Shown: piece after piece, positions 1,606 through 15,562 of the stretch | How positions within the stretch are numbered: the first letter of the stretch is position 1 | Layout: the number at the start of each line of letters is the position of its first letter | Origin: an uncultured Chlorobiaceae bacterium | GTDB taxonomy: Bacteria > Bacteroidota > Chlorobiia > Chlorobiales > Chlorobiaceae | Direction of reading: 5' to 3' | DNA length: 32,834 nucleotides | Assembly (NCBI GenBank): GCA_903843305.1 | Contig: CAIMPI010000047.1 | Location: 1 to 32,834 of the forward strand | Translations under genes and position numbers: made by a program | Notes under the pieces: model-generated | The model's input: only the letters and a program-made list of their open reading frames with translations | What the model was told of the DNA's origin: nothing | Database searches by the model: none

Positions 1606-1650
1606 CCTGACATTTAAAGGGGTTATAAGCCGTCATTCATGGTTTTTGAA
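1606..1650 (-). promoter_or_regulatory. Short CRISPR leader with promoter-like sequence overlapping the cas2 3' end
   Basis: Only 27 bp separate the last repeat (ends 1605) from the cas2 stop codon (1633). On the minus strand a TTCAAA box (1645-1650) and a TATAAC box (1622-1627) are 17 bp apart, a good sigma-70-like spacing. Transcription would then begin about 8 nt before the first repeat. The -35 box and part of the spacer lie inside cas2. No convincing IHF site was seen. The promoter is an inference from two hexamers; cotranscription of the array with the cas operon is the alternative. Confidence 0.4.
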
Positions 1651-1947
1651 TGGCTGCTCTGGTTCCGTATACTTCTCAATAACCAGTTGCATCCCGGAAA
1701 GTTCGATTATCTCTTTTCGGGTATCACCCAAGCCATAAATCTCATATCCCGGTGGCAAATTGCTGCTCTTGAAAACCATCAGACCGGATTCTGAAGGACA
1801 ATGGTTGTGCAGATATTCAACCACTTTTTTTGCAACAGAATCTTTTACGCCGGAGACAAATATATTTGCCCGTGGTTCGGCAAACCAAAGCTTCATTCTG
1901 CCTCGTACTGCTGGAGGAATATCATTCGCAATAACAACAAGCATCAT
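1633..1947 (-). CDS. cas2: CRISPR-associated endonuclease Cas2, type I-E
   Basis: This 104-aa protein is the Cas2 subunit of the Cas1-Cas2 spacer integration complex. The N-terminus MMLVVIANDIPPAVRGRM, followed by WFAEPRANIFVSG, is the ferredoxin-like pattern of the short type I-E Cas2 (about 95-105 aa). In this subtype Cas2 acts mainly as the structural dimer that bridges two Cas1 dimers. The first ATG at 1947 overlaps the cas1 stop by 4 bp (ATGA), which suggests coupled translation; a second ATG follows at once. It is the last gene of the cas operon, and its 3' end appears to hold the promoter of the CRISPR array 27 bp downstream. Confidence 0.96.
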   Translation of the reverse strand: MMLVVIANDIPPAVRGRMKLWFAEPRANIFVSGVKDSVAKKVVEYLHNHCPSESGLMVFKSSNLPPGYEIYGLGDTRKEIIELSGMQLVIEKYTEPEQPFKNHE

Positions 1948-2825
1948 GACCTCCCAAGCATTTCTTCGATATCCGGTCCAATGCGTGCCAAGAGATCTAT
2001 AGCGATTACCCTTCTGCGGAATTCGGTGGCAATTTTGTGTCTATCATACTCCCCTGCCATCAGTGCCGTCAGTGCAAATGCAAGATCAATAGAGAGATGT
2101 TCTTTGTAGAGGTCTGCAATATCATAAACAAATGGCAGAGGACTTCCGGCATGAATAAAACCTATATGTGGGGAATATCCCATACTGTGAACTGCCGAAG
2201 AAATAATTCCGTATAGAGCAGCGTTCGCTGATGTCAGGATTCTGTTGGTTATATCACCCATCTCAAACTTGCCTGGGGTAAATTGCCTCCCTTTCCAGCC
2301 TACCTTGTACTCTTGAGCTTTTGTTTCATAGAGTTGTCGAACACGCAAGCCTTCCATACCCATCATCTGTTTAAGGTTTTTGTTTTCCAGTTTTGCCTCA
2401 GGGAACCTGCGAGTAAACATTCGTGTAGCAACCTTGAGCGAAGCATCAGGATCAGCGGAGAGAATCAGTTGCCGATGAAAGTTACGAGTATCACTTGTCG
2501 GTGTCTGACCCGCTGCATAAAAAATAAGAGCGTCTTCACCAACCCAGCAGACTCCACAATTCGCCGCAGCCATAACCTTCACCGCTTCGTGAGTAACAGC
2601 CGTGCCTGGCCCAAGAAGCAAACAATTGAGCATCGCAACGGGTAATCTGACAACATTATTGTCACAATCAATCCATTTGACACTGCTGTCATCAATTTCA
2701 AGCCGCCCCCGTTCCAAATAGATAAATGGATATTTATCCTTGACCTGCGGCAACGTGTCTCGCGTAATTTTTATCAGCAATCGGGATGGTGTGTTATCGT
2801 GTACAGGTGGTTCAGGCATCGTCAT
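1944..2825 (-). CDS. cas1: CRISPR-associated integrase Cas1, type I-E
   Basis: Cas1 is the metal-dependent integrase that joins new spacers to the leader-proximal repeat. From the ATG at 2825 the protein has 293 aa, slightly shorter than E. coli Cas1. The three active-site residues are visible: Glu158 in GMEGLRVR, His225 in GFIHAG and Asp238 in YDIADLY. The N-terminal beta domain precedes an alpha-helical catalytic domain. The frame can be opened one codon earlier at a TTG (2828), but the ATG at 2825, or the one at 2819, is more likely. The start region overlaps the end of cas5e, and the stop overlaps cas2, so adaptation genes are tightly coupled to the Cascade genes. Confidence 0.97.
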   Translation of the reverse strand: MTMPEPPVHDNTPSRLLIKITRDTLPQVKDKYPFIYLERGRLEIDDSSVKWIDCDNNVVRLPVAMLNCLLLGPGTAVTHEAVKVMAAANCGVCWVGEDALIFYAAGQTPTSDTRNFHRQLILSADPDASLKVATRMFTRRFPEAKLENKNLKQMMGMEGLRVRQLYETKAQEYKVGWKGRQFTPGKFEMGDITNRILTSANAALYGIISSAVHSMGYSPHIGFIHAGSPLPFVYDIADLYKEHLSIDLAFALTALMAGEYDRHKIATEFRRRVIAIDLLARIGPDIEEMLGRS

Positions 2826-3543
2826 CAATAGTTAGAATACTTACCCTTCGTTCTCTGTAAACCTTATTTTCTCCAAATTGAATGGGCACATCATTCAGTA
2901 TGATTGTCTCCCCTGCGCCCTCGCCATCAACTACCCTGAAGTCCTCCACCCTCCCTTTCCCATCCGCAATTTCAAGGGCTTTTTCCAATGCAGAAGGTGC
3001 TGATTCAAAACATCCACGATAAATGAAGTCAGTAGGGGCACAACATTTTCTGCCAAAATAGATATCCCAGTATGGGTTTTCCAGAGCATTTGCAAAGGTC
3101 GCTGCTTTTTCGGCTGGAACTTCCAGTATGGCAGCAAATGCTTCACCCTGAAGATAGTAGCGGTAGGTTATTTTTGAGCCCCCATTGACTGCCGCCGTTC
3201 CATCGCTTTTTTTAGGAATAAGAAGGGTTTCCCACGGATTTTTCTCATCATAGCCACTGCCGACCATCTGGAAATCACGCAGTAGAGGTTCTCGGCCAAC
3301 TTTTTGCCACTCTCCCCTACTGTTTTCCCTTTTTCTGCCAAATGAGATAACGCTCTGGGTCAACGGCGCCATCTCTTCAAGCAGCTCCCGCTGTTCTCCA
3401 CCAGCCCCAAGAGCGCAACACAACAAACCAAGAATTCCTGATTTGGTCGGAAACTCAAGGGTACCCCTCCTCCCGAATCGCGAATCGGCTCCCCACGATT
3501 GCAATGGCGCTTCAAGCCACAGCAAAAGATAAACATTACTCAT
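2812..3543 (-). CDS. cas5e: Cascade subunit Cas5e (CasD)
   Basis: Cas5e caps the 5' handle of the crRNA at the foot of the Cascade complex. The 243-aa protein starts with LLLWLEAPLQSWG, followed by FPTKSGILGLL, the typical Cas5e beginning, in which an RRM-like fold opens with a strand and a glycine-rich helix. Length matches the family (about 220-250 aa). The ATG at 3543 overlaps the cas7e stop by 4 bp. The C-terminal part contains VYRERRVSIL, also common in this family. In type I-E it does not process RNA; that task belongs to Cas6e in the same operon. Confidence 0.96.
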   Translation of the reverse strand: MSNVYLLLWLEAPLQSWGADSRFGRRGTLEFPTKSGILGLLCCALGAGGEQRELLEEMAPLTQSVISFGRKRENSRGEWQKVGREPLLRDFQMVGSGYDEKNPWETLLIPKKSDGTAAVNGGSKITYRYYLQGEAFAAILEVPAEKAATFANALENPYWDIYFGRKCCAPTDFIYRGCFESAPSALEKALEIADGKGRVEDFRVVDGEGAGETIILNDVPIQFGENKVYRERRVSILTIDDDA

Positions 3544-4583
3544 AGGCCCTCCGCCACATAGCTTGTTAATTCTGAGACAAGGTTGTCGATGTTGAAACTG
3601 CTATCCTGTCCAAAGGTATACTCCTTTTGCTTCCCAAAAAGTGATCCTGCCAACTTCTCTTTATGGGTAAGATAGTCGGTGAGTGCAGTTATGCTTGGTT
3701 GAAGATAGCCGCCATCTTTTGATTTAACAGCAGTTTCAAAGGGAACCTGCAAACGCTGCCCCTTGCGGATGTAAATCTTTGCAAACTCCCAGGGTGATGC
3801 TCCTGACTGTGTTGTCTGCCGTGCACTCGGTACAGCCACAAAAAGTGCTTTGGTAAATGCCTCAATGGCTTTTGCAAGCCCTTCTCCCAAAAGAGAATCC
3901 CATAGTTGACCGAGGTCGAGACTGATGTAGCGGTAATAGGTTGCGGAATTGAATTCAAGACTACCCATATGTGCGGAACCCGTCTCTTCGCTCAAATCGT
4001 CAAGGGCAGTGAAGAACTCCACCTCGTTGCTCACTTTGTGAGTGGAAATGGCATGGGAGAACGAAGAGGCAGCTTCGACATTGAGTTCACTTGCCTGAGC
4101 AACCATACGCCCAAACAGGGCAATATCAAGCCCATCAATAGCAGTGTTCAAATGTTTTTTGGCTACTTTCTGAAGCTCTTTATCGTTAAGCTTGGTACTG
4201 TCAAAACCTTTTTCCTGCGCATAATCTGCAAATGCTTGAGCTTCGGATGCAGTGAAAAAAAACAGAGTATCCTTGCTGAAAGAATCAGAAACAACCTTAC
4301 CACACGCTGTTGCCTGCTCATCCAATGCTCCGCTTTCGATACAAGCTTTGGCAACAAAATCCGCAATTTTTTTCGAACGAATTCCGAGCTTGATGCCAAA
4401 ATCCTGCATGGCAAGTCGCACCTGACGTTTCCAGCATTGAGAGCTGACACGAGCACGGGTGTTTCCGCCAACTATAGCTGTTTTTGGAGCACCAACATCG
4501 TCACGGTTTAAACAGGTGACTGGGAAGGATTGGAGAATGTGATATTCAATGCGAGTGTTTCTGAATGGATTTGTGGGGCTCAT
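3540..4583 (-). CDS. cas7e: Cascade backbone subunit Cas7e (Cse4/CasC)
   Basis: Cas7e polymerises (six copies in E. coli) along the crRNA spacer and forms the Cascade backbone. The 347-aa protein begins with the family signature: IEYHILQSFPVTCLNRDD, then GAPKTAIVGG and TRARVSSQCWKRQVR. Length agrees with known type I-E members (about 345-370 aa). The ATG at 4583 is 11 bp downstream of the cas6e stop. Its stop overlaps the cas5e start by 4 bp. Cas7e follows cas6e here, whereas in E. coli it directly follows cse2. Confidence 0.97.
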   Translation of the reverse strand: MSPTNPFRNTRIEYHILQSFPVTCLNRDDVGAPKTAIVGGNTRARVSSQCWKRQVRLAMQDFGIKLGIRSKKIADFVAKACIESGALDEQATACGKVVSDSFSKDTLFFFTASEAQAFADYAQEKGFDSTKLNDKELQKVAKKHLNTAIDGLDIALFGRMVAQASELNVEAASSFSHAISTHKVSNEVEFFTALDDLSEETGSAHMGSLEFNSATYYRYISLDLGQLWDSLLGEGLAKAIEAFTKALFVAVPSARQTTQSGASPWEFAKIYIRKGQRLQVPFETAVKSKDGGYLQPSITALTDYLTHKEKLAGSLFGKQKEYTFGQDSSFNIDNLVSELTSYVAEGL

Positions 4584-4594
4584 GATGATAAATA

Positions 4595-5221
4595 TTAATT
4601 GATGATTGAAAATTTTATGGGCGCTATCTGAAGCAGACCAAAACCAAAAGCTTTGCCGCGTCCAATACCATGCTGAAAACTTTTAATGAAAAGAGATCGG
4701 TCGATCACTTCAAGCTCACCTGACAGTTCTGCTCCTCCATGCGTAACGCTGTGAGTTTGCTTGACGAATTGCTTCACTTGAAGGCTTTTGACCTGAAGAG
4801 TTGCAGGATTGACTGTAAAGCCCCACGATGCCGGTGCCTTTTCAATAAACCACAGACCAATCTCATCCCGCTCCTTGATGGCTAAGAGTTTACGGCTTCT
4901 GCTATCACGTTTGGTGGGGTTGATGACTAACTCAAAACGATAACGATCAAAGGTCAAAAATTTATCATCAATCGGCTTTGATTCCAGAACTCCATGCTCC
5001 GGTTTACGAGGCTCCCTGTCTGACAGCAACAGTATAAGCCGACCGTTCTTGTCACCTCCCTTGTCGGCATAGAGAAAACCGCTTGGAACACTGGCGTTTT
5101 TCTCTGCATCAGTTCTCCGATCTTCAAAAAGGCTGTAGACAACCCTATGCAACGAGTAGTCATCAGTAATGCGCAACGCTTTTATCTCCTTTGGGCCCAG
5201 CCTGAGAATACTTGCTATCAT
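4595..5221 (-). CDS. cas6e: crRNA-processing endoribonuclease Cas6e (Cse3/CasE)
   Basis: Cas6e cuts within each repeat of the CRISPR transcript and stays bound to the 3' hairpin of the crRNA. The start at 5221 is chosen because MIASILRLG is the family N-terminus and because its ATG overlaps the cse2 stop (ATGA). The upstream extension is therefore not used, and the protein has 208 aa. Tyr22 and His25 (in DDYSLHRVVYSLF) match the catalytic Tyr/His pair known from the Thermus homologue. The glycine-rich C-terminal loop GIGRGKAFGFGLL is present. Its place between cse2 and cas7e differs from E. coli, where it follows cas5e. Confidence 0.95.
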   Translation of the reverse strand: MIASILRLGPKEIKALRITDDYSLHRVVYSLFEDRRTDAEKNASVPSGFLYADKGGDKNGRLILLLSDREPRKPEHGVLESKPIDDKFLTFDRYRFELVINPTKRDSRSRKLLAIKERDEIGLWFIEKAPASWGFTVNPATLQVKSLQVKQFVKQTHSVTHGGAELSGELEVIDRSLFIKSFQHGIGRGKAFGFGLLQIAPIKFSIIN

Positions 5222-5751
5222 ACCGCCTCCTTTGTAGCGAAACTCTGAGTATGCCGGTAAAACTCTTGTGCCCACTCAGTCTTGACTCTCTGGCTATCCC
5301 AATAAAATTTAAGCAGTTGCTCAAGCAAACGGGCGTAATCAACAGCAGCACCCACTCTTGCATCAATCAGACTGAAGAGTGGACGGAGAATTCGGCACAC
5401 TTCTTCGATGGAGTCGCAGGCAAGCAGTCGACGCAGTTTAGCTTTTGCCTGATCACTCTGATTCCCATCATCATAACAGCGGGCAATGGCGTTGCCTATG
5501 CCAATTGAGCCGTTTTGCTCAATTTTGGCTTTTGCAATTGCTGCTGTAACTGTTGCATAGGGTAACCGCACCCAAGGTTTGTCCAGATCAATATTGAAGG
5601 CTGCCAGATACTCCCAGCTCTGATATTCTGTTGCCGGGTTGTCCGCTCGTCGTAATGCCGCAGCAACCCCCTTGTTTAGCTTGATCCGCTCAATAATGAA
5701 CAGTACAAATGCCAGAGACCTGCTGGTTTTCGTTTCAGGTGCATTAGTCAT
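5218..5751 (-). CDS. cse2: Cascade small subunit Cse2 (CasB, Cas11e)
   Basis: Cse2 forms the dimeric belly of type I-E Cascade and stabilises the R-loop on the non-target strand. The 177-aa, mostly helical protein has typical segments such as NKGVAAALRRADNPATEYQ near the N-terminus and RFHR-like basic helices later (AKAKLRRLLAC). Length fits the family (160-200 aa). The ATG at 5751 lies 12 bp after the cse1 stop and is preceded by a modest GGAAAG element. The stop overlaps the cas6e start. Confidence 0.93.
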   Translation of the reverse strand: MTNAPETKTSRSLAFVLFIIERIKLNKGVAAALRRADNPATEYQSWEYLAAFNIDLDKPWVRLPYATVTAAIAKAKIEQNGSIGIGNAIARCYDDGNQSDQAKAKLRRLLACDSIEEVCRILRPLFSLIDARVGAAVDYARLLEQLLKFYWDSQRVKTEWAQEFYRHTQSFATKEAV

Positions 5752-5763
5752 AGGTTCTTTCCG

Positions 5764-7317
5764 TTACGGATTGAGATAGTTGATAAGATTCGGTCTGTTT
5801 TTTGCCCATGCATCAATCTGTCTGGCGCTCTCTTTTGGACAAAAGGTGTCGTAGGCTTTTATCGCAAATTGGGCAAATGCTTTTCTTACTTTATTTGTCG
5901 CATAGGGTGGCTCACAAGCATCAACAAGTTCCTGAAAACGACGTTCACAGAGTTGCCAAAAAAGAGTTGATGCCTGATCAGCAAGAGCGGTATCACTCAT
6001 ATTCTGCGCTTTAAAAAAGCCATTTGTTGAAGCAAAGACAGTTTTCGATAGCTTGTCAAGAGCCTCCATTTCGATTTTGAGCTGATTATACCATAGCTCT
6101 CCAAGCATAACAGTCTCAAGAAAAACAAGGGACTCAACAAAGTCATTATCCTGCTTTACCGACTGATCGCCAGCATTCGGGCTTACCCGGAGCCCTCCTG
6201 ACCAGACACCAAGTTTTTTGTATCGTTGACGAAAACGGTTAAAACCATTTTTTATAAATTGGCATTCATAACCTGAAGAAACATCCGTACCCATAAAAGC
6301 AAGTAAAGAAACAAGTTCTCGCCAAGGACGCTTGTTCGGGTCAATCCACTTTATTTTAGGTGTGGCGGCATCTGTGTTTACCGCCATGCTCGGTTCACGC
6401 CAGCCTTCCTTATGGCTGGGGTAGTGGATACCCTCGACATAATAGATTCCATCTCCTTCCAGCAGAACAAAACGTGACAAGGCGACAAGTGTCGCCATAT
6501 AAGAACTTTTTAAATTTATGGCTGCCGGACAGGCAACACCTGTCGGCATCTCCTCCCAGGGGGCAGTTCCAAGACCGGTCGTCCAGTATGCGTTCTCTTT
6601 TATTCTTTCCTGCGAGAACAGGTTGAGGAACAATGTGTCAATAAGAGTTTCACCAACAAGCATGGAGTGGAGATATCCGACATAATTACCAAGACTTGGA
6701 GCCGATTTTGCTGAAGGAGTTTTTCCGACATAACCAAGTATCAACTGATCTTCAAGGTTTTTCTCGACTCGTTTCCCTCCCAGAGCAAAGTTCATAAGGG
6801 ATACAATGAAAATAGCTTTGTCGGCATCAGCCAACACCTTTGGAATTTGATACTGGGTCAGGATGGTGTTGTTGTCGGAAGGCATGTCTGGATAAAAGCC
6901 CATACCAAGAGACTTGGGCTTAGCATTGGCTTCAGCATTGCTTCGATCAGATTCCTTTTTAGCTTCTTTGAGATCTTTCCGTTTCCTTCGCTCAATAAGT
7001 CCTTGAAGAGCGGGCATTTGCAAAAACGGTTTTTCTCCGTAAAGCCAAAAGCGATCGTGCCATTTATCGAGATAGTCAAGGCACTTGCTGGAAAGCTCTG
7101 AACTCTCCATTGCTTCGAACGCCTCATCGTCTGCCGGGGTACATGCGGCCTGAGCAATGGCAAGTAACAGCTTTGTCACAGCCATTTTCTGAAGGGCATT
7201 GCCACCAAGAGCTCGATTGTCGAGTTCGCTGAATACCTGACGGAGGCTCAACCGGCCTTTGTCTATAACAGTTATCCATGGTTCATCAATCAAGTTAAAA
7301 CGATTTTCAAGATTCAT
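5764..7317 (-). CDS. cse1: Cascade large subunit Cse1 (CasA, Cas8e)
   Basis: Cse1 recognises the PAM, opens the target DNA and recruits Cas3. I place the start at 7317 because MNLENRFNLIDEPWITV is the standard N-terminus of the family. The open frame continues 42 codons upstream, but that part overlaps the end of cas3 and has no family character. The protein is then 517 aa, close to the usual 500-520. FNLIDEPWI at the start and FYPDMPSDNN near residue 150 support the call. The start is 19 bp after the cas3 stop in the same operon, so Cascade and Cas3 are probably made from one message. Confidence 0.95.
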   Translation of the reverse strand: MNLENRFNLIDEPWITVIDKGRLSLRQVFSELDNRALGGNALQKMAVTKLLLAIAQAACTPADDEAFEAMESSELSSKCLDYLDKWHDRFWLYGEKPFLQMPALQGLIERRKRKDLKEAKKESDRSNAEANAKPKSLGMGFYPDMPSDNNTILTQYQIPKVLADADKAIFIVSLMNFALGGKRVEKNLEDQLILGYVGKTPSAKSAPSLGNYVGYLHSMLVGETLIDTLFLNLFSQERIKENAYWTTGLGTAPWEEMPTGVACPAAINLKSSYMATLVALSRFVLLEGDGIYYVEGIHYPSHKEGWREPSMAVNTDAATPKIKWIDPNKRPWRELVSLLAFMGTDVSSGYECQFIKNGFNRFRQRYKKLGVWSGGLRVSPNAGDQSVKQDNDFVESLVFLETVMLGELWYNQLKIEMEALDKLSKTVFASTNGFFKAQNMSDTALADQASTLFWQLCERRFQELVDACEPPYATNKVRKAFAQFAIKAYDTFCPKESARQIDAWAKNRPNLINYLNP

Positions 7318-7336
7318 GTAAGTGGTGTTGCCCTGT

Positions 7337-9910
7337 TTATAGTTTGATTGAACGATACCCTGTTCGTGGATGATAACTGAGCCTGTATTTTGCTGATGCA
7401 GTGCCACCGTTAAGGGATACAAGCTCTCCATCCTGCCCAACAACAGCTACACGAAGAAGACTCTCGTCATGAGCGCTATCTCCAAGATAGAAATAACTCT
7501 TCAGCCACATGAGGTTTGTAAGAGAGATAGCTTCAGGAGCAAGATAATCAGCAACATGCAACGTATAAGAGAGAAGAGTGGCAGCAAGTGCGCGTTGCTC
7601 TTTTTTACTCTTCCGTAAATTTGCCGACGGCAGAAAAAGAGAACTTCCGTCAAGCAGTTTTACGACGGCTCCATGTTGATCAAGGCGAAAAGAGCGCAAC
7701 AGCAAAACTTCAACATTTTCCTGTTCGCTGTAACGGGTGGTCGCCTTGCTTTCAGGTAAAGTTCTGCTTCCTTCCGAAACACCACCCAAAGCAAGCCGTT
7801 CAAGCTTTTCCTTTTCCTGTTGGAGCTTCTTTTTATGTCCTAACATAACGGCACTCTCTTCACGCTCTCGATAGGTTGCTTCGATTAGAGTACGTATCTG
7901 GTCAGGAAGAACAATCTCGGTCAGAGCGTCCCACACGGCAAGGGTACGCAGAAGAACATAAGGGCTGTAAACCTTGGAGGTCGGCCCGAATTCCTTCTCA
8001 GGGTTTAACAATGCACTGTTATAATCTGGCTTCAAAATCCACACTTCGCAACAGGTACCAGCCGGACGGAAAGTTTCGCTATGTCGCCACAGTCGGCCAA
8101 TTCGTTGCAGCAACATATCTGTGGGGCAAATTTTTGTCACCAGAAAGTCTGCATCAATATCAAGAGACTGCTCTAAAACCTGAGTACCAACAAGTATCCG
8201 ACCACTTATCAGCCTGAGTTCAGGGCTTCCCTTCCCATAGCGGGTGACCCAGTACTCCTCGTTGCGTTCACGGTCAGCTTTAATGAAACGCGAATGAAGC
8301 AAACCACACTCAATTCCCAATCCTGCAGCACGTGCAGCAAGAATGCTGAAAGAGTCTTGTGCTTCCATAACCGTATTTTCTATCCAGAGAACCTGCTGAC
8401 CACCTTCTGCCCGTTTCAGAACCTCCTCCATAGCCATGTCGAGAGATGAAGAAGATTGAATGTTCACAACGGTTTTACCTGTCACAATGGCCGTTGCTTC
8501 TATCGGAAATTCACCATGATTTCCACTGACTGTTATAAGCGGATAGGAAATATCATGCACTTGTTGTTTCAGAATCCGCATCCGGCGTTCTCTGGTGAGG
8601 GTGGCACTAAGGATAATCACAGTACACTGGAGACCGCGAAGTGTTTCAACAAGTTTATCGAGTATGGTTCCTGTATAGGCATCATAAGAGTGTACCTCAT
8701 CGAGAATAACAACTTTCCCTGCAAGGCCGAAAGCCCTCACAAAGCCATGCTTGACATTCATCACCGCCATCAGCGCCTGATCAATCGTGCCAACCGCGAA
8801 AGGGGCAAGAATACCTCGTTTACCCACACTGAACCAGCTTCCTCCCGCTCCACCATCCTCACCCATTTCAATCTCTTTCAACCAAGCATTGCTGTGAAGC
8901 AAAAGGGCATTACGATGGATGCTCTCTGGCTTGACTATTTTTTTCAGAAAATCATTGACCCGATCATGAATTTTATTTGATGTCAACTGTGTCGGCAGAG
9001 CAAAGTATAATCCTGTCGCACCACCAGCAGCGATTATGGAATATGCGGCATAGAGTGCCGCTTCCGTTTTACCGATACCCATTGGAGCTTCGAGAATATA
9101 AACACCCGGTTTTGCTGCCTGCTGAATCAGCAACTGCTGAATTTCTCTTGGTTTAAACTTGAATATATCGCTGAAGCCAAGACCTTTGACCAGATCAGGC
9201 CATACAAACCCAGCGGCATCAACAGCTTGTTGGATGAGTGGTTGCCAATCCTCATCTGGATTATCAAAATAATTGCCCGATCCAATCCAATCGGCAACGG
9301 TGGTAAGGCCAGCAACCGCTTTTGCCTGGAAAGCATTTTCGATGGCAGGAAATGGTGTGTTCATCAAATCCTTCAGGCTGTGCAAGAGTTCCCCTCTCTT
9401 CTCCAGCCAAGGGTGCCCTCCAAAAACCTCATCATCAGCGACACGTCCACCTAATTCAGATGAATATCCATGATGTTGACCGATAATTTCAGGGATGTAT
9501 TTCCCTATACGCAGGGTTTGTGCTGTTGCCATACTGACACCTGCATGACCACCCCAATTTCGTTCCTGGGCTGGATTGGCATGAGAAAGGCATTCAAGCG
9601 AATTCCAGATATAACCATCTGTTCCCCGATAAATTTTCTCCTGAAATGTTGGACTCACTTTGCCTATGTCATGAACAGCAGCAATCAGTTCTGAACCAAC
9701 AGGAAAAAGTGCTGTCCGCAAAAAGGCTGGCATTCGAGCAAGAAGTTCCTTTGCAATCTCACCAACGATGCTGCAATGATCAATAACACCTCTCCCTGCA
9801 ACATGTCGATCATTCTCCAAACGAGTTTTTGCGAGGCAAGCATCGAGCGACAGGGGCTGACTTTGCCGAAGAGGAGGGCTTGAATTGTTTTTTACTTTAG
9901 GCGTGCGCAT
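7337..9910 (-). CDS. cas3: CRISPR-associated helicase-nuclease Cas3, type I-E
   Basis: Cas3 is recruited by Cascade and degrades target DNA by coupled HD nuclease and 3'-5' helicase action. In this 857-aa protein the HD domain shows His45, the His80-Asp81 pair in AAVHDIGK, and His146-His147. The SF2 helicase follows: Walker A APMGIGKT (275-282), DEVH box (404-407), SAT motif (435-437) and QRIGRLWRH (602-610). All catalytic motifs seem intact. The ATG at 9910 has no clear Shine-Dalgarno site, and the stop of a 49-codon ORF lies only 6 bp upstream, so translation may be coupled. It is the first full-length gene of the operon. Confidence 0.97.
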   Translation of the reverse strand: MRTPKVKNNSSPPLRQSQPLSLDACLAKTRLENDRHVAGRGVIDHCSIVGEIAKELLARMPAFLRTALFPVGSELIAAVHDIGKVSPTFQEKIYRGTDGYIWNSLECLSHANPAQERNWGGHAGVSMATAQTLRIGKYIPEIIGQHHGYSSELGGRVADDEVFGGHPWLEKRGELLHSLKDLMNTPFPAIENAFQAKAVAGLTTVADWIGSGNYFDNPDEDWQPLIQQAVDAAGFVWPDLVKGLGFSDIFKFKPREIQQLLIQQAAKPGVYILEAPMGIGKTEAALYAAYSIIAAGGATGLYFALPTQLTSNKIHDRVNDFLKKIVKPESIHRNALLLHSNAWLKEIEMGEDGGAGGSWFSVGKRGILAPFAVGTIDQALMAVMNVKHGFVRAFGLAGKVVILDEVHSYDAYTGTILDKLVETLRGLQCTVIILSATLTRERRMRILKQQVHDISYPLITVSGNHGEFPIEATAIVTGKTVVNIQSSSSLDMAMEEVLKRAEGGQQVLWIENTVMEAQDSFSILAARAAGLGIECGLLHSRFIKADRERNEEYWVTRYGKGSPELRLISGRILVGTQVLEQSLDIDADFLVTKICPTDMLLQRIGRLWRHSETFRPAGTCCEVWILKPDYNSALLNPEKEFGPTSKVYSPYVLLRTLAVWDALTEIVLPDQIRTLIEATYREREESAVMLGHKKKLQQEKEKLERLALGGVSEGSRTLPESKATTRYSEQENVEVLLLRSFRLDQHGAVVKLLDGSSLFLPSANLRKSKKEQRALAATLLSYTLHVADYLAPEAISLTNLMWLKSYFYLGDSAHDESLLRVAVVGQDGELVSLNGGTASAKYRLSYHPRTGYRSIKL

Positions 9911-9916
9911 AAAGAT

Positions 9917-10066
9917 TTAAAGTTGTAGAGAAATGAGGCGATGAGCAGCAAATTGAGCAGCTTGTTCAGCAACATGGATGAGATGATCTTTCAGGTGGTG
10001 TACTTCCCATGAGCCATCCGACTTTTCCAGAAGATGGGCAACCGGTTGTATTAATTGTGACGCCAT
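9917..10066 (-). CDS. 49-aa ORF like the start of a Cas3 HD domain, directly before cas3
   Basis: This ATG-started ORF ends with TAA 6 bp before the cas3 ATG. Its protein contains WEVHHLKDHLIHVAEQAAQF, which resembles the first HD-domain helix of Cas3 proteins (pattern W..L..HL..VA..AA.FA). It then stops after HRLISLQL, well before any HD dipeptide. The Cas3 next to it has its own first histidine (VIDHCSIV), so this is not its missing start. The frame stays open about 23 codons upstream of the ATG without a better start. No strong ribosome site is seen. It may be a remnant of a second cas3-type gene or a small coupled peptide; similarity is judged by eye only. Confidence 0.45.
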   Translation of the reverse strand: MASQLIQPVAHLLEKSDGSWEVHHLKDHLIHVAEQAAQFAAHRLISLQL

Positions 10067-10356
10067 AAGAAATGAGTGGCACTGAAATTCAATAAACCGC
10101 CAGCCAAAACATGAAATTGATTTTAAACAATTATTTTACTAATAGCAAAGTATTCTTATTATGGGATTGACGTATTCATTCAACAGACGGCACAGTATCC
10201 TCGTATTATTCTGGCATCAGGAAGAGAACAATTGTTAATCACGTTCATTAAAGAATTATATAATCCGAACTCTATCCTTTATCTTGAAAGCACACTGTAT
10301 AGAGAACAGAGCTTCCCCTATCAGCTCATTCCAAGAAATCCTAACCCTCTATAGCT
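10067..10356. other. Divergent intergenic region between the cas operon and uspA
   Basis: No gene was seen in these 290 bp. The region is AT-rich and must carry the promoters of the leftward cas operon and probably the rightward uspA gene. A perfect TATAAT lies at 10259-10264 on the plus strand, but no convincing -35 box stands at the right distance. No clear minus-strand promoter could be chosen. Confidence 0.4.
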
Positions 10357-10806
10357 ATGTTCAAGATCCACACCATTCTTTGCCCAATTGACTTTTCTGA
10401 TGCATCGCGTAAAGCTGTACGTTATGCGCATGAATTTGCCGTCACTATGCGTGCACAAATATTTCTGCTCAATGTTGTCGACATCCCGATTGAATCTATA
10501 TTGAACAATGTGCAGCTTGACGAAGATCTTGAAAAATCAGCGCAGGAGAATCTTGATGTTGTCAAGAATGAACTACTTTCTGAAGGGTTAAGGGTCGAGA
10601 GTGCGGTTAAGATAGGCGACCCTGCCGAGGTGATTATTGATCATACTGCAAAACTCGATGTGAATCTCATTATTATGGGTTCGCATGGCAAGAAAGGGCT
10701 GAGCCGCCTTATAATGGGAAGTGTTGCTGAAACGGTATTGCGCAATGCTGACTGCCCGGTACTTATTGTTAAGAAACATGAAAAGGAATTTATCGACGAA
10801 CAGTAA
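10357..10806 (+). CDS. Universal stress protein, UspA family
   Basis: This 149-aa cytoplasmic protein has the UspA fold. It begins with KIHTILCPIDFSDASRKA and ends with the nucleotide-binding pattern G-2x-G-9x-G-S (Gly108, Gly111, Gly121-Ser122), followed by CPVLIVKK. The pattern places it with ATP-binding Usp proteins, which help cells survive stress and growth arrest; the exact role is unknown. It is a full-length single-domain member. The ATG at 10357 has no evident Shine-Dalgarno site. The patatin-like gene follows 38 bp later on the same strand, so the two may share a transcript. Confidence 0.93.
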   Translation: MFKIHTILCPIDFSDASRKAVRYAHEFAVTMRAQIFLLNVVDIPIESILNNVQLDEDLEKSAQENLDVVKNELLSEGLRVESAVKIGDPAEVIIDHTAKLDVNLIIMGSHGKKGLSRLIMGSVAETVLRNADCPVLIVKKHEKEFIDEQ

Positions 10807-10844
10807 ATTCGTAAGAGAACGCTTCTAACCTTAATAATAGCATC

Positions 10845-13800
10845 ATGGACACTCTTGCATCTCCTCATTCAAGTACTATTACAAAGGAAATCCGTTTCGC
10901 GGTGGTGATGTATGGAGGCATATCATTAGCCATTTACATGAACGGCATAGCCCAGGAGCTTCTTGCACTTGTTAAGGCTACAGCAGATAGTTCCGGCAAT
11001 AAAGAGCTGAAAGGGAGCGAAAAAGTCTATAAGGAGATTGCTGACTATCTGACGGAAATAACCCCTGCATTCAACCATAAATTTGTTGTTGACATCATAT
11101 CCGGCACTTCAGCAGGCGGAATAAACGGCGTCTGCCTGGCAAAAGGACTTGTTCGCGGGCTTGACGACCTTAAGGTTCTTGAAAGAATCTGGCTGAATGA
11201 AGGAAACATTGACACATTGCTCAACGACTCCAATTCACAGCCCCGCCTCTATCCATCAAAAGAGCCGAAAACTTCCCTGTTTAACAGCCAGAGAATGTAT
11301 GCAAAACTGCTCGGAGCATTTAAAGAGATGGAGAAGGGAGTAAAAGCAGAACCGAATCCCCATATCTACTCCATGGATTTGTTTGTTACCGCTACTGACC
11401 TCAGGGGTTTACAGGTACCGATTCAGTTAAGCGACAGCACCGCTAATGAGCACATACATAAACATGTTTTCCCGTTCAAATATCGTGAAGATGAATCGCT
11501 TCGGGACAAACCACTGAATCACTTTCTCGGAGATTTCGACCCCATGCTTGCCTTTGCTTCCAGATGCACCTCATCAATTCCTCCAGCATTTGAACCAGTA
11601 AAAATCAGGGAAATACTCGACTACCTCCAGGAGCGTGAACCTAAAGATTACGAAAACGTTGCAAAGCATTTCGATGAATGGGAAGCCAGTTTTTTTCAGA
11701 CATACTTCATGCTCAATGGCAATGAAAATGACGGCATTTCACTGAAGGAAAGGGAGTTTGCCGATGGCGGTTACCTCGACAACAGGCCTTTTGGTTATGC
11801 TATCAATGCCATTCATGAACGCCAGGCTGACTGCCCTATTGACAGGAAACTTCTCTTTATCGATCCATCTCCAGAAGATAAAGATATAAAAGAGAGAAGA
11901 AAAGAGATCTCTTTTGTGCAAAACAGTGTTCTTGCTTTCACCCTGCCGAGATATGAAACTATTCGGGAAGAACTCAAAGCTTTACAAAAAAGAAACGAAT
12001 GGATTAATAAAGTTCACCATATTCTCGAAGAAAAATTGGTGGACAATAATCGGGAACATCTGAAACAACGAATAGTAAACAGTGAGTCCTATGAATTTAT
12101 AATTGCTTCACAAATAAATAGTATCGGGAATATCTCTGAAAAACTTTTTTCGATACCACTGGTTGCTATTCAGCAATCAGAACCATTGGCATCTCAACAA
12201 ACGTTTACATCAGAAGAGATACTTGTCAAAAAATTCTGGAAGGAAATCGCTAATCCGAAAAAAGAGAACAGCAAATACGATACTGAAGTGAAGGATTTCA
12301 ACAGTATGTTCAAACTTCTTGGAGGCGCTTATCCGGCATATCATTATACCAGAATGAATCTTTTGACAGATCAACTGGCATTAATCATTGCAAGAGCGGG
12401 AATGGTCGATGAAAACTCTGAAATTTTTAAAACCATCCGTATTAATCTTAAAAAATGGAGAACAAAACATTATAATGCCTTTAAGGAAGGGATTTCAGAT
12501 TTCGGGGAAATGAAAACGGAAAACATGTTTTTCCGTGAATTTGATATTGATTTTCGAATCCGCAGACTTAGTTATTTCCGAAAAATCCTGGAAAAAGCAA
12601 TATCGGAAAACAACGTTGCATACCTCTGCTTTGGCATGGTAAACGACGAACCCGGGACGCAAAATCCAGAAACCATATCCTGTAAAAAATGGAACAATGA
12701 CTTTTCTACCGCTATAAATATTTTTTATAACGAGCTCTGCAAAAATCTCAAGTCATACTACCTGCTCAAAGAACAACTGTTCTGCTATGGAGACGAAAAT
12801 CCTCTCTATAAAAAGCTCAATGAAGGAGTGGTGAGCGATTCAAAAGAACCGCACAAATTTTCTCATGAAAAAATAAAAAGTTTTTTTAGCCGGCAATATA
12901 ATAGTGGCAGCGAATTGGACGATTTCAAGAAGGATTTTGATACTCTGATGGATGATCTGCATGACTTTATCGCAGACTTTGATCAAAATCATCAGCATGG
13001 TACCACGCAAGCAAGTGAGCTGCTGAGCAATTCGTTCAGTAAACTCAGTGAAAACTATCCTGAAATTGCTGGTCGATTGAGATTCATGTACGATTATGGA
13101 TATGACCTTTATGATGCAACAACGTTTCAGTTGCTTGCTGGGGGTGATTATGGCGAAGGTAACGTCGTTGACATCCTGAGGATAAGCCCAGCCGATGCCC
13201 CAAGCCTATGGAATGAAAGTGAAAAAAAGAAATCAAAACTTGCAGGAACTGCTCTTGGTGCCTTTGGTGGATTTCTTGACCGGGAGTGGCGCAGAAACGA
13301 CATTATGTGGGGAAGGCTTGATGCCGCAGAAAGAATTATCACTGCCCTGCTGCCAGACGCATTATCAGCACAAAGCAAAGAGAAAAAAGCTGCATTTATT
13401 GAAAAGGTGCAGGAAATAATTCTCAGAGAAGCTCTGAATGAATGGATCGCTGAACTTGCATCGACGCAATTTACCGTATCAAAAGATGAAGAGCAATACA
13501 ACCGGCTTTTGAGCATCCAGAAAAGCTTTGATTCTTCCGGGGTTCAGGGAAATGGAAAAGGAGAACCCGCATGGAAGCAACAGTTCAAGAACGCTTATGA
13601 TTTTCACCGAGAACTTGAACCCGAGCCAACCCTGAGACGCCTTGGACGGGGCTCTGGAATTCTCTCTTCCATGATTGACAGACTTGATCCGGGAAAAGGA
13701 ATGATAGCGAAAATCAGCGGCTACCTGAAAAAGCTCAACTGGATTTTGCTCAGTATGCTTGATTTTTCTACACCAAAAACCATGACGGGTGTTCTTTTGG

Positions 13801-14015
13801 GTTACTGGCTGCAGTTACTGGTTCTTGTTTCGGTTATATTGATTGCTATGGGAATATTTCTGAACACCTATGCAGCCAAATCGGGTATAGGTGATCCAGT
13901 AAGAAATCTTGGACTGCTTCTCCTTTGCATAGACATCATTGTGATGTTGATTAAAAAGTCTTTGTTAACCCATATTCATAGAATAAAAAACAGGCAAGCT
14001 ACCATGAGGGATTAA
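10845..14015 (+). CDS. Large patatin-like phospholipase-related protein
   Basis: The 1056-aa protein has a patatin-type lipid acyl hydrolase domain at its N-terminus. The glycine-rich oxyanion region is MYGGISLAIYMNG (22-34), the nucleophile elbow is GTSAGG with Ser89, and the catalytic Asp is in DGG (307-309). A long middle region of about 600 residues is helical and of unknown role. Two membrane segments near the C-terminus (around 975-1000 and 1015-1035) probably anchor it. Size and architecture fit the large patatin-related family that I know as TIGR03607. The MOSC gene starts within its stop codon (TAATG), which indicates coupled translation. Substrate is unknown. Patatins also act as effectors in some phage-defence systems, but no cyclase or sensor gene is next to it. 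Confidence 0.9.
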   Translation: MDTLASPHSSTITKEIRFAVVMYGGISLAIYMNGIAQELLALVKATADSSGNKELKGSEKVYKEIADYLTEITPAFNHKFVVDIISGTSAGGINGVCLAKGLVRGLDDLKVLERIWLNEGNIDTLLNDSNSQPRLYPSKEPKTSLFNSQRMYAKLLGAFKEMEKGVKAEPNPHIYSMDLFVTATDLRGLQVPIQLSDSTANEHIHKHVFPFKYREDESLRDKPLNHFLGDFDPMLAFASRCTSSIPPAFEPVKIREILDYLQEREPKDYENVAKHFDEWEASFFQTYFMLNGNENDGISLKEREFADGGYLDNRPFGYAINAIHERQADCPIDRKLLFIDPSPEDKDIKERRKEISFVQNSVLAFTLPRYETIREELKALQKRNEWINKVHHILEEKLVDNNREHLKQRIVNSESYEFIIASQINSIGNISEKLFSIPLVAIQQSEPLASQQTFTSEEILVKKFWKEIANPKKENSKYDTEVKDFNSMFKLLGGAYPAYHYTRMNLLTDQLALIIARAGMVDENSEIFKTIRINLKKWRTKHYNAFKEGISDFGEMKTENMFFREFDIDFRIRRLSYFRKILEKAISENNVAYLCFGMVNDEPGTQNPETISCKKWNNDFSTAINIFYNELCKNLKSYYLLKEQLFCYGDENPLYKKLNEGVVSDSKEPHKFSHEKIKSFFSRQYNSGSELDDFKKDFDTLMDDLHDFIADFDQNHQHGTTQASELLSNSFSKLSENYPEIAGRLRFMYDYGYDLYDATTFQLLAGGDYGEGNVVDILRISPADAPSLWNESEKKKSKLAGTALGAFGGFLDREWRRNDIMWGRLDAAERIITALLPDALSAQSKEKKAAFIEKVQEIILREALNEWIAELASTQFTVSKDEEQYNRLLSIQKSFDSSGVQGNGKGEPAWKQQFKNAYDFHRELEPEPTLRRLGRGSGILSSMIDRLDPGKGMIAKISGYLKKLNWILLSMLDFSTPKTMTGVLLGYWLQLLVLVSVILIAMGIFLNTYAAKSGIGDPVRNLGLLLLCIDIIVMLIKKSLLTHIHRIKNRQATMRD

Positions 14016-14482
14016 TGGATTGGTCTTTTAGTCAACAAAGTATGGGAATTATTGAAGCGGTTTGTATCAGTACTGAAAAAGGCATTGTAAAAACAGCCGT
14101 TGGCCAGATAACGCTCAGATCTGACTGGGGAATAGAGGACGATGCTCATGCAGGAAACTGGCATCGGCAAGTCTCAATTCTTGCTGGAGAGAGTATCGAC
14201 CGGATGCGCAGCATAATTCCTGATCTTGATCACGGCATGTTCGCTGAAAATATTGTGACCAGAGGCATGGATCTTTCGTGTCTCACAATAGGCGACTCTT
14301 TATTGGTCGGCGATGGTATCGTTCTTGAGATTACCCAGATCGGCAAAGAGTGTCACCATGAAGGATGTGCTATACAGAGTGCAACAGGTGATTGCATTAT
14401 GCCAAAAGAAGGCATTTTCTGCCGGGTCTTACAGGGTGGAACGATCAGGCCGGGGATGGCTGTCGGAACTGCACCTGTGTAA
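14015..14482 (+). CDS. MOSC domain protein
   Basis: The 155-aa protein is a stand-alone MOSC domain, a beta-rich fold found in molybdenum cofactor sulfurase C-termini and in proteins that handle sulfur or hydroxylamino compounds. The segments DDAHAGNWHRQVSIL, FAENIVTRG and IGDSLLVG are typical. Cys113 and Cys118 in KECHHEGCAIQ mark the presumed sulfur-carrying site. The ATG at 14015 shares a base with the patatin stop; MGIIEAV at 14042 is an alternative start closer to the usual family N-terminus. Function with the patatin partner is not known, and no molybdopterin gene is in the window. Confidence 0.88.
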   Translation: MDWSFSQQSMGIIEAVCISTEKGIVKTAVGQITLRSDWGIEDDAHAGNWHRQVSILAGESIDRMRSIIPDLDHGMFAENIVTRGMDLSCLTIGDSLLVGDGIVLEITQIGKECHHEGCAIQSATGDCIMPKEGIFCRVLQGGTIRPGMAVGTAPV

Positions 14483-14617
14483 ACCGTGCTGGTTCTTATG
14501 AATATCAGACGGAGTCAAAACCATTTGGATTCATACTGACAAAATGTTAAAATATAAGTCTTGAACGATTCAAATAATCCACCCCTTCCCCTAACAAAAA
14601 ATAAAGGAACTCCGACT

Positions 14618-14959
14618 ATGTCTCGTTTCGTTTCAGCAGCCTTTTGTGCTCTCTTTGTTTTTTCAATGAGCTCTGCAAATGCCAGTGCCGCCACTACCTA
14701 TAATGCTTCAGCAGGTAAAGCCGTATATGACGTAAGCTGTACCAACTGCCACAAAATGGGCATTATGGGAGCCCCGAAACTCGGTGATAAGGCCGCATGG
14801 GCCCCTCGTATCGCTCAGGGCATGGATATTCTTGTCAGCAAATCAATCAAAGGATTTCAGGGTAAAAAAGGAATGATGATGCCAAAAGGCGGCAATCCGA
14901 AACTCACGGATGCAGAGGTTGGCAATGCTGTTGCTTATATCGTTCAACAGAGCAAGTAA
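14618..14959 (+). CDS. Cytochrome c-555, soluble class I cytochrome c
   Basis: The 113-aa precursor has a signal peptide of about 25 residues (SRFVSAAFCALFVFS, then ASA). A mature domain of about 87 residues follows. Heme is bound at CTNCH (41-45), and a methionine ligand is expected in the MMM run (86-88). The mature sequence (AGKAVYDVSCTNCH, GAPKLGDKAAWAPRI, KGGNPKLTDAEVGNAVAY) closely matches what I recall of cytochrome c-555 from Chlorobium, the periplasmic carrier linked to the P840 reaction centre and sulfur compound oxidation. I start at the ATG at 14618 because an AAAGGA site lies in front; a TTG start at 14561 would add an unlikely extension. A strong terminator follows. Confidence 0.92.
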   Translation: MSRFVSAAFCALFVFSMSSANASAATTYNASAGKAVYDVSCTNCHKMGIMGAPKLGDKAAWAPRIAQGMDILVSKSIKGFQGKKGMMMPKGGNPKLTDAEVGNAVAYIVQQSK

Positions 14960-14982
14960 GCACTGAAGTTTCATGATAATTG

Positions 14983-15009
14983 AAAGGCGGGAGAAGGTTT
15001 CCCGCCTTT
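14983..15009 (+). terminator. Rho-independent terminator after cytochrome c-555
   Basis: A perfect 10-bp stem (AAAGGCGGGA pairing with TCCCGCCTTT) with a 7-nt loop lies 23 bp after the cytochrome stop and is followed by an AT-rich tract. It touches the stop codon of the convergent yqhA-like gene (15008), so it may serve both directions. Confidence 0.85.
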
Positions 15010-15562
15010 ATTTATGGGTATTATTTATTTGTTGTATATGCGTCAAAAATAAAGCTCCGGAAATAAGAATAATTCCAACACCCAAATATAAAAGATCTAA
15101 CGAGCTATGATACTGGATATCTAAAGAATTCTCAAAGAAAGAAACAATTAAGATCATCAGAATTACTTTTCCGAGAGCTGCTTTAAGATCATCAAGACTC
15201 TTGACATTTAACCAATTTGGTCGAGATTCAGGCGTACGACTTGCAGGGTCTATTTTACTAATAAATAATTCATAAATACCCATACTGAAAATGAGTAAAA
15301 CTGTTGCAAACAGGTAATTATCAACCGAGGAAATTAACAGGGGAACAAGTGTCGCAACTTCATGTTCATTGATAGTATTAAAGTTAAGTAATTGTTTAAT
15401 GAACAACATTAACCCATTATAAACTAAAAGTGTCCCGTTGAGATACATAATAAAAGATGCAACGAAAGAACCTAACACAGCAGTTAAGACAATAAAACGA
15501 GTGTTAAACAGCAGCGTCTCAAAAACATTTTCTATTTTTTTCTCTATTTCTATTTTGTTCAT
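15008..15562 (-). CDS. YqhA/UPF0114 family membrane protein
   Basis: The 184-aa protein has about four membrane segments. They lie near residues 18-42, 67-90, 125-145 and 155-172. The pattern FNTRFIVLTAVLGSFVASF near the N-terminus, the middle helix YLFATVLLIFSMGIYELFISKID and the linker RPNWLNVKSLDDLKAALGK are those of the YqhA (UPF0114) family of inner-membrane proteins. Biochemical function is not established. It starts at ATG 15562 without a clear Shine-Dalgarno site and lies 63 bp downstream of an unknown membrane protein gene on the same strand. Confidence 0.85.
   Translation of the reverse strand: MNKIEIEKKIENVFETLLFNTRFIVLTAVLGSFVASFIMYLNGTLLVYNGLMLFIKQLLNFNTINEHEVATLVPLLISSVDNYLFATVLLIFSMGIYELFISKIDPASRTPESRPNWLNVKSLDDLKAALGKVILMILIVSFFENSLDIQYHSSLDLLYLGVGIILISGALFLTHIQQINNTHK

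Follow-up and report, generated by a model that had tools for sequence, protein, structure and literature searches.

A truncated subtype I-C cas3 start in front of a subtype I-E operon: a very probable gene-replacement scar in a Chlorobiaceae bacterium

Why does a frame of 49 codons that resembles the beginning of a Cas3 HD domain stand directly in front of a cas3 gene with an HD domain of its own? The window, a stretch of 32,834 nucleotides from an uncultured Chlorobiaceae bacterium (genome G000), carries such a mini-ORF at 9917-10066 on the minus strand. It opens with ATG, runs for 49 codons, ends with TAA and reads MASQLIQPVAHLLEKSDGSWEVHHLKDHLIHVAEQAAQFAAHRLISLQL in the program-made list of open reading frames. 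Its distance from cas3, given as 6 bp in the preliminary description, is confirmed: the ATG of cas3 lies at 9910 and the gap covers 9911-9916.

The cas3 gene itself (7337-9910, minus strand) is intact, encodes 857 aa and belongs to subtype I-E (PADLOC Cas3e, E = 8e-155). Its HD domain is complete, as had been stated, with Pfam Cas3_HD covering positions 2-204 of 207 and TIGR01596 positions 3-177 of 178. The rest of the I-E operon, cas8e to cas2 (1633-7443, minus strand), is delimited by its ORFs and aligns with the I-E operon of genome G028, whose Cse1/CasA was confirmed; the true start of its first ORF may be downstream of 7443. A CRISPR array of I-E type, with repeats CACCCCCACGCCTGTGGGGAAGAC and a self-similar blast pattern, occupies the contig end (1-1606, strand unassigned).

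The mini-ORF is the start of a subtype I-C cas3

We searched 86 genomes of Chlorobiaceae with the mini-ORF peptide as query. The best match, in Chlorobium sp. G035, shows 80% amino-acid identity over residues 1-40 (E = 6e-16), and about 20 further hits in the family include many at 55-68% identity. The matches are N-termini of a cas3 gene, MAAQSIQPVAHLRENSDGLWEVHDLKDHLIHVAEKAALFADEFGNGDWAKAAGVLHDLGKYNPQWQ..., and share start and frame with the mini-ORF, whose peptide contains WEVHHLKDHLIHVAEQAAQF. In G035 this gene heads the operon cas3-cas5c-cas8c-cas7c-cas4-cas1c-cas2 with an array, assigned to subtype I-C by curated Cas5c, Cas8c, Cas7c and Cas1c profiles. A search of the 49-mer alone against Pfam, NCBIfam and PADLOC profiles, one of the checks proposed earlier, gave no significant match because the peptide is too short; the best hit, DNAJ_related at E = 0.083, was dismissed as chance. 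The same check succeeded with a profile built from 12 I-C cas3 N-termini, which matches the mini-ORF over positions 1-41 of 84 (E = 1.9e-12). The proposed likeness to the Cas3 HD N-terminus thus holds.

Homology to I-C cas3 codons 1-41 covers 9944-10066 (minus strand) and stops within the first helix of the HD domain, just 5' of the DEFGNGDW found in almost all intact copies. Nine non-homologous codons and the stop follow, so the mini-ORF is a truncated 5' end of the upstream frame (ORF A) of I-C cas3, as the ORF list, the family search and the profile match indicate. It was rightly described as stopping short of the HD dipeptide, which occupies residues 56-57 in ORF A of G035, whereas the mini-ORF ends after residue 49. 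The helicase is missing as well, and the first-helix histidine is the sole ligand of a functional Cas3 HD nuclease that is present. The peptide therefore cannot be a nuclease.

Homology with G035 extends beyond the coding part. Window positions 9948-10175 match the I-C cas3 start of that genome at 73% (blastn), so that about 110 bp upstream of the mini-ORF (10067-10175, minus strand) are retained I-C cas3 upstream DNA, promoter region included. The alignable part holds a promoter-like site, TTGCTA-N17-TAAAAT (10120-10148, minus strand), found by a consensus scan with 9 of 12 matches, a score that by itself does not exceed the chance expectation from shuffled sequence.

Further to the right, the flank is common with the intact I-C locus of G035. 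The MOSC-like and cytochrome c-like genes (14015-14959, plus strand; named from sequence reading) lie within a segment, 14038-15011, that matches G035 at 75% (blastn, locus L036) about 1.1 kb from the I-C cas3 start. Likewise, the divergent uspA-like neighbour of the mini-ORF (10357-10806, plus strand) also adjoins I-C cas3 in G025 and G026 (blastn, 68% to L048 and L049). A complete I-C operon thus occupies the same chromosomal address in G035, and from the shared MOSC/cytochrome c flank together with the divergent uspA we conclude that an I-C operon formerly sat here. Between the uspA-like and MOSC-like genes the window has a gene for a patatin-like protein of 1056 aa (10845-14015, plus strand; identified by eye), missing from the corresponding place in G035. 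On the left, the I-E locus runs into the contig end and the junction observed is the right one only; the gene after the I-C array of G035 was found on contig C48 of G000, behind other genes and with no array beside it.

Together the results make it very probable that the mini-ORF is a gene-replacement scar, the 5' end of an I-C cas3 whose operon was swapped for an I-E operon. That the I-E operon had displaced another, different cas3 and left a remnant of it was one of two earlier suggestions; it is now strongly supported, with the donor subtype, a syntenic intact locus and parallel scars identified. In the proposed course of events, an ancestor would have carried an I-C operon reading left from the promoter near 10120-10148. 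Recombination, possibly at a microhomology of a few bases, would have fused I-C cas3, at about codon 41, with an arriving I-E operon. The joint would lie in the leader of that operon, about 25-45 bp ahead of its cas3 ATG, and the remainder of the I-C operon would have been lost. Alignments to I-C relatives and to native I-E leaders place the junction in a zone, not at a base (9920-9952, minus strand), with AATTT(G/A)CTGC as possible microhomology.

The DNA upstream of I-C cas3 is still in place, together with the first 40 codons of the gene, and I-E DNA starts within about 45 bp of the end of homology. At most about 45 bp of native I-E leader are kept in G000, versus about 65 bp in G028. Since this remnant is too short for a full promoter, the I-E operon is probably now transcribed from the old I-C promoter, as the layout of the locus suggests.

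The genome holds another cas3, unsplit, on contig C50 (L031), where it belongs to a second type I system with a Cas7/Csp1 of type I-PGING. An origin of the mini-ORF from that gene was rejected: the gene adjoins the type I-PGING Cas7, and no second match to the mini-ORF was found in G000.

Alternative readings of the mini-ORF

The other earlier suggestion was a small peptide that regulates I-E cas3 or couples its translation. The stop-to-start distance of 6 nt suits re-initiation and recalls translationally coupled short upstream ORFs, and where the I-C locus is intact, the counterpart of the mini-ORF, ORF A, overlaps the following ORF in the manner of coupled genes. Furthermore, the I-E cas3 of G000 has no Shine-Dalgarno site, as the preliminary description had noticed. 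This is no peculiarity of the locus, however, because no clear site was found within 20 nt of the I-E cas3 start in the relatives examined, scarred or scarless, and the scarless genes manage without an upstream ORF. In G063, G059 and G051, native I-E cas3 genes stand behind a leader of their own, with no I-C frame. The expected conservation of the frame upstream of I-E cas3 is likewise absent among the relatives examined; the G028 version is independently truncated and has a different tail. Unlike coupled upstream ORFs, the scars conserve neither peptide nor spacing: the tails after the junction are unrelated, each unique to its genome, and stop and start are 42 or 58 nt apart in other scars versus 6 nt in G000. 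The position of the mini-ORF is explained by the recombination junction.

Substitutions give a mixed picture. A comparison of 32 codons of the scar with G035 gives 9 synonymous and 6 non-synonymous differences. The pN/pS of 0.19 counts against a scar but is mostly a legacy of the time before the replacement, when the gene was intact in both lineages. Polarised with 13 relatives, non-synonymous to synonymous changes are 4:3 on the G000 branch versus 1:4 on the G035 branch, which hints at relaxed constraint on the scar and is not significant (Fisher p about 0.29, hand calculation). The four G000-branch amino-acid changes strike positions conserved in the 13 relatives, an argument against a working peptide. 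We therefore consider a functional leader peptide improbable. In the replacement scar, the truncated frame would simply end at a stop codon 6 bp short of the I-E ATG, and ribosomes ending there might restart on cas3; no sign of selection for such a restart was found, and incidental translational coupling in this one genome is possible.

Insertion instead of replacement would mean that the I-E operon arrived from elsewhere already fused to an I-C cas3 5' end. G028 also has an I-C 5' end followed by I-E, and one could imagine a fused cassette common to both, part of which G000 later lost. Yet the two scars lie at different addresses, their breakpoints differ on both sides, and the upstream DNA of each fits its own local I-C lineage (G000 with G035, G028 with G042). 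Such an insertion is very unlikely. Finally, the idea that a random short ORF happens to resemble an HD-domain helix, which the failed direct profile searches of the 49-mer might suggest, is refuted with near certainty by matches at E = 6e-16 and 1.9e-12, by DNA homology reaching into the non-coding upstream region and by synteny.

Other junctions and a split HD domain in the family

An I-C cas3 5' end precedes something else in five other genomes of the family (G028, G054, G042, G038 and G079). In G028, I-C codons continue to GNGDWV, beyond the breakpoint of G000, and are followed by an I-E operon at an address shared with G042. In G054 they continue to LHDLGKYN, and an I-F operon follows (Cas1f, Cas3f, Csy3, Csy4). 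In G038 and G079 ORF A is complete; of the second frame, ORF B, the initial ~12 codons are fused in frame to another I-C-type cas3 with its own complete HD domain. The fused ORF B lies at 9170-11467 in L041 (G038) and at 5578-7947 in L047 (G079), both on the minus strand, with the intact ORF A upstream. G042 has two truncated I-C 5' ends with no adjoining cas operon; these copies are near 1110-1223 and 2933-3043 of L039 (minus strand), and the block around them looks duplicated. An upstream flank is common to G054 and G079. Moreover, the DNA upstream of the I-E loci in G070 and G060 is shared (88-90%) with the I-C loci of G075 and G033, with no mini-ORF there.

These parallel cases show that cas operons have been exchanged recurrently behind upstream DNA that stayed in place. 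The search was baited with the I-C 5' end, and the frequency of junctions elsewhere is outside its reach. We tentatively put forward, as a possibility that we would not yet favour, that the I-C cas3 5' end (promoter plus first 40-85 codons) serves as a retained expression platform. Incoming operons of other subtypes would be joined behind it repeatedly and would survive through expression from it, and promoter capture would thus bias where subtype switching leaves junctions.

A palindrome-like element of 19 bp, CCTCAGACRGCTTTTGTCC, was observed in 13 of the 86 genomes, with no matches for a reversed control. It precedes I-C cas3, I-E cas3, I-F cas1, another cas3 type and other defence-like genes, with sites at L043:2950-2968, L046:735-753, L070:1078-1096, L059:2730-2748, L130:74-92 and L106:147-165, and is absent from G000. 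Its placement makes it a candidate that could be a shared defence operator. In G019 and G027, a gene for a WYL-like regulator (identified by eye) stands just upstream of I-C cas3.

In 18 of 18 intact loci of the family, spread over two genera, the HD domain of I-C cas3 is split between two overlapping ORFs; the count includes G056 as well as G038 and G079 with their fused ORF B. ORF A has 79-84 aa. ORF B lies in the +1 frame, and its conserved ATG overlaps the stop of ORF A and is usually preceded by a GGAGG-like site. In G035 (L036) the two frames occupy 10720-10974 and 8736-10733 on the minus strand, and TIGR01596 is divided between them, positions 1-61 on ORF A and 64-177 on ORF B. The gene is likewise split in G020, G025, G019 and others. 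In other families of the phylum, most homologues consist of one ORF of about 744-804 aa. Of the apparent exceptions to this unsplit state, G283 proved to run off a contig end and G131 to have the HD domain in one frame, while G318 has an internal stop.

Judged from sequence alone, re-initiation would likely yield two polypeptides that jointly form the HD site. A programmed +1 frameshift is less likely than re-initiation: there is no conserved slippery site, and the ATG is conserved, usually with the GGAGG-like site. The split suggests a Cas3 variant that is open to nuclease assays.

Cas turnover at one address

That one cas subtype has replaced another at a single address is, as a rule, deduced from trees or synteny. 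In the present locus the joint can be seen directly, and in several relatives independent joints follow the same gene start, likewise retained.

In Escherichia and Salmonella, one location repeatedly received cas systems by transfer, and a deletion left a cas3 pseudogene behind (Touchon and Rocha 2010, PMC2886076). The locus described here resembles that turnover in that cas clusters are exchanged or lost at one address and a cas3 remnant stays. Unlike there, the remnant is only the promoter-proximal cas3 end of another subtype, directly before the new operon, and the scar recurs with I-E, I-F or another I-C-type cas3 as new occupant. Compared with a genuine I-C cas3, the mini-ORF has homologous codons 1-41, the homologous upstream region and the I-C address of G035, but it is truncated, lacks the helicase and gives way to an I-E operon. 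Green sulfur bacteria are known to differ in CRISPR subtype; of two Chlorobium species, for instance, one has I-E and the other I-C (PMC8620254). Our literature search found neither such scars nor a divided I-C HD domain reported for Chlorobi, and the main text of the GeneTack paper mentions neither CRISPR nor Cas3.

The scar is a new and unusually clear case of a known process, cas replacement at one address. Visible joints of this kind make subtype switching datable, and promoter capture by an incoming operon directly testable.
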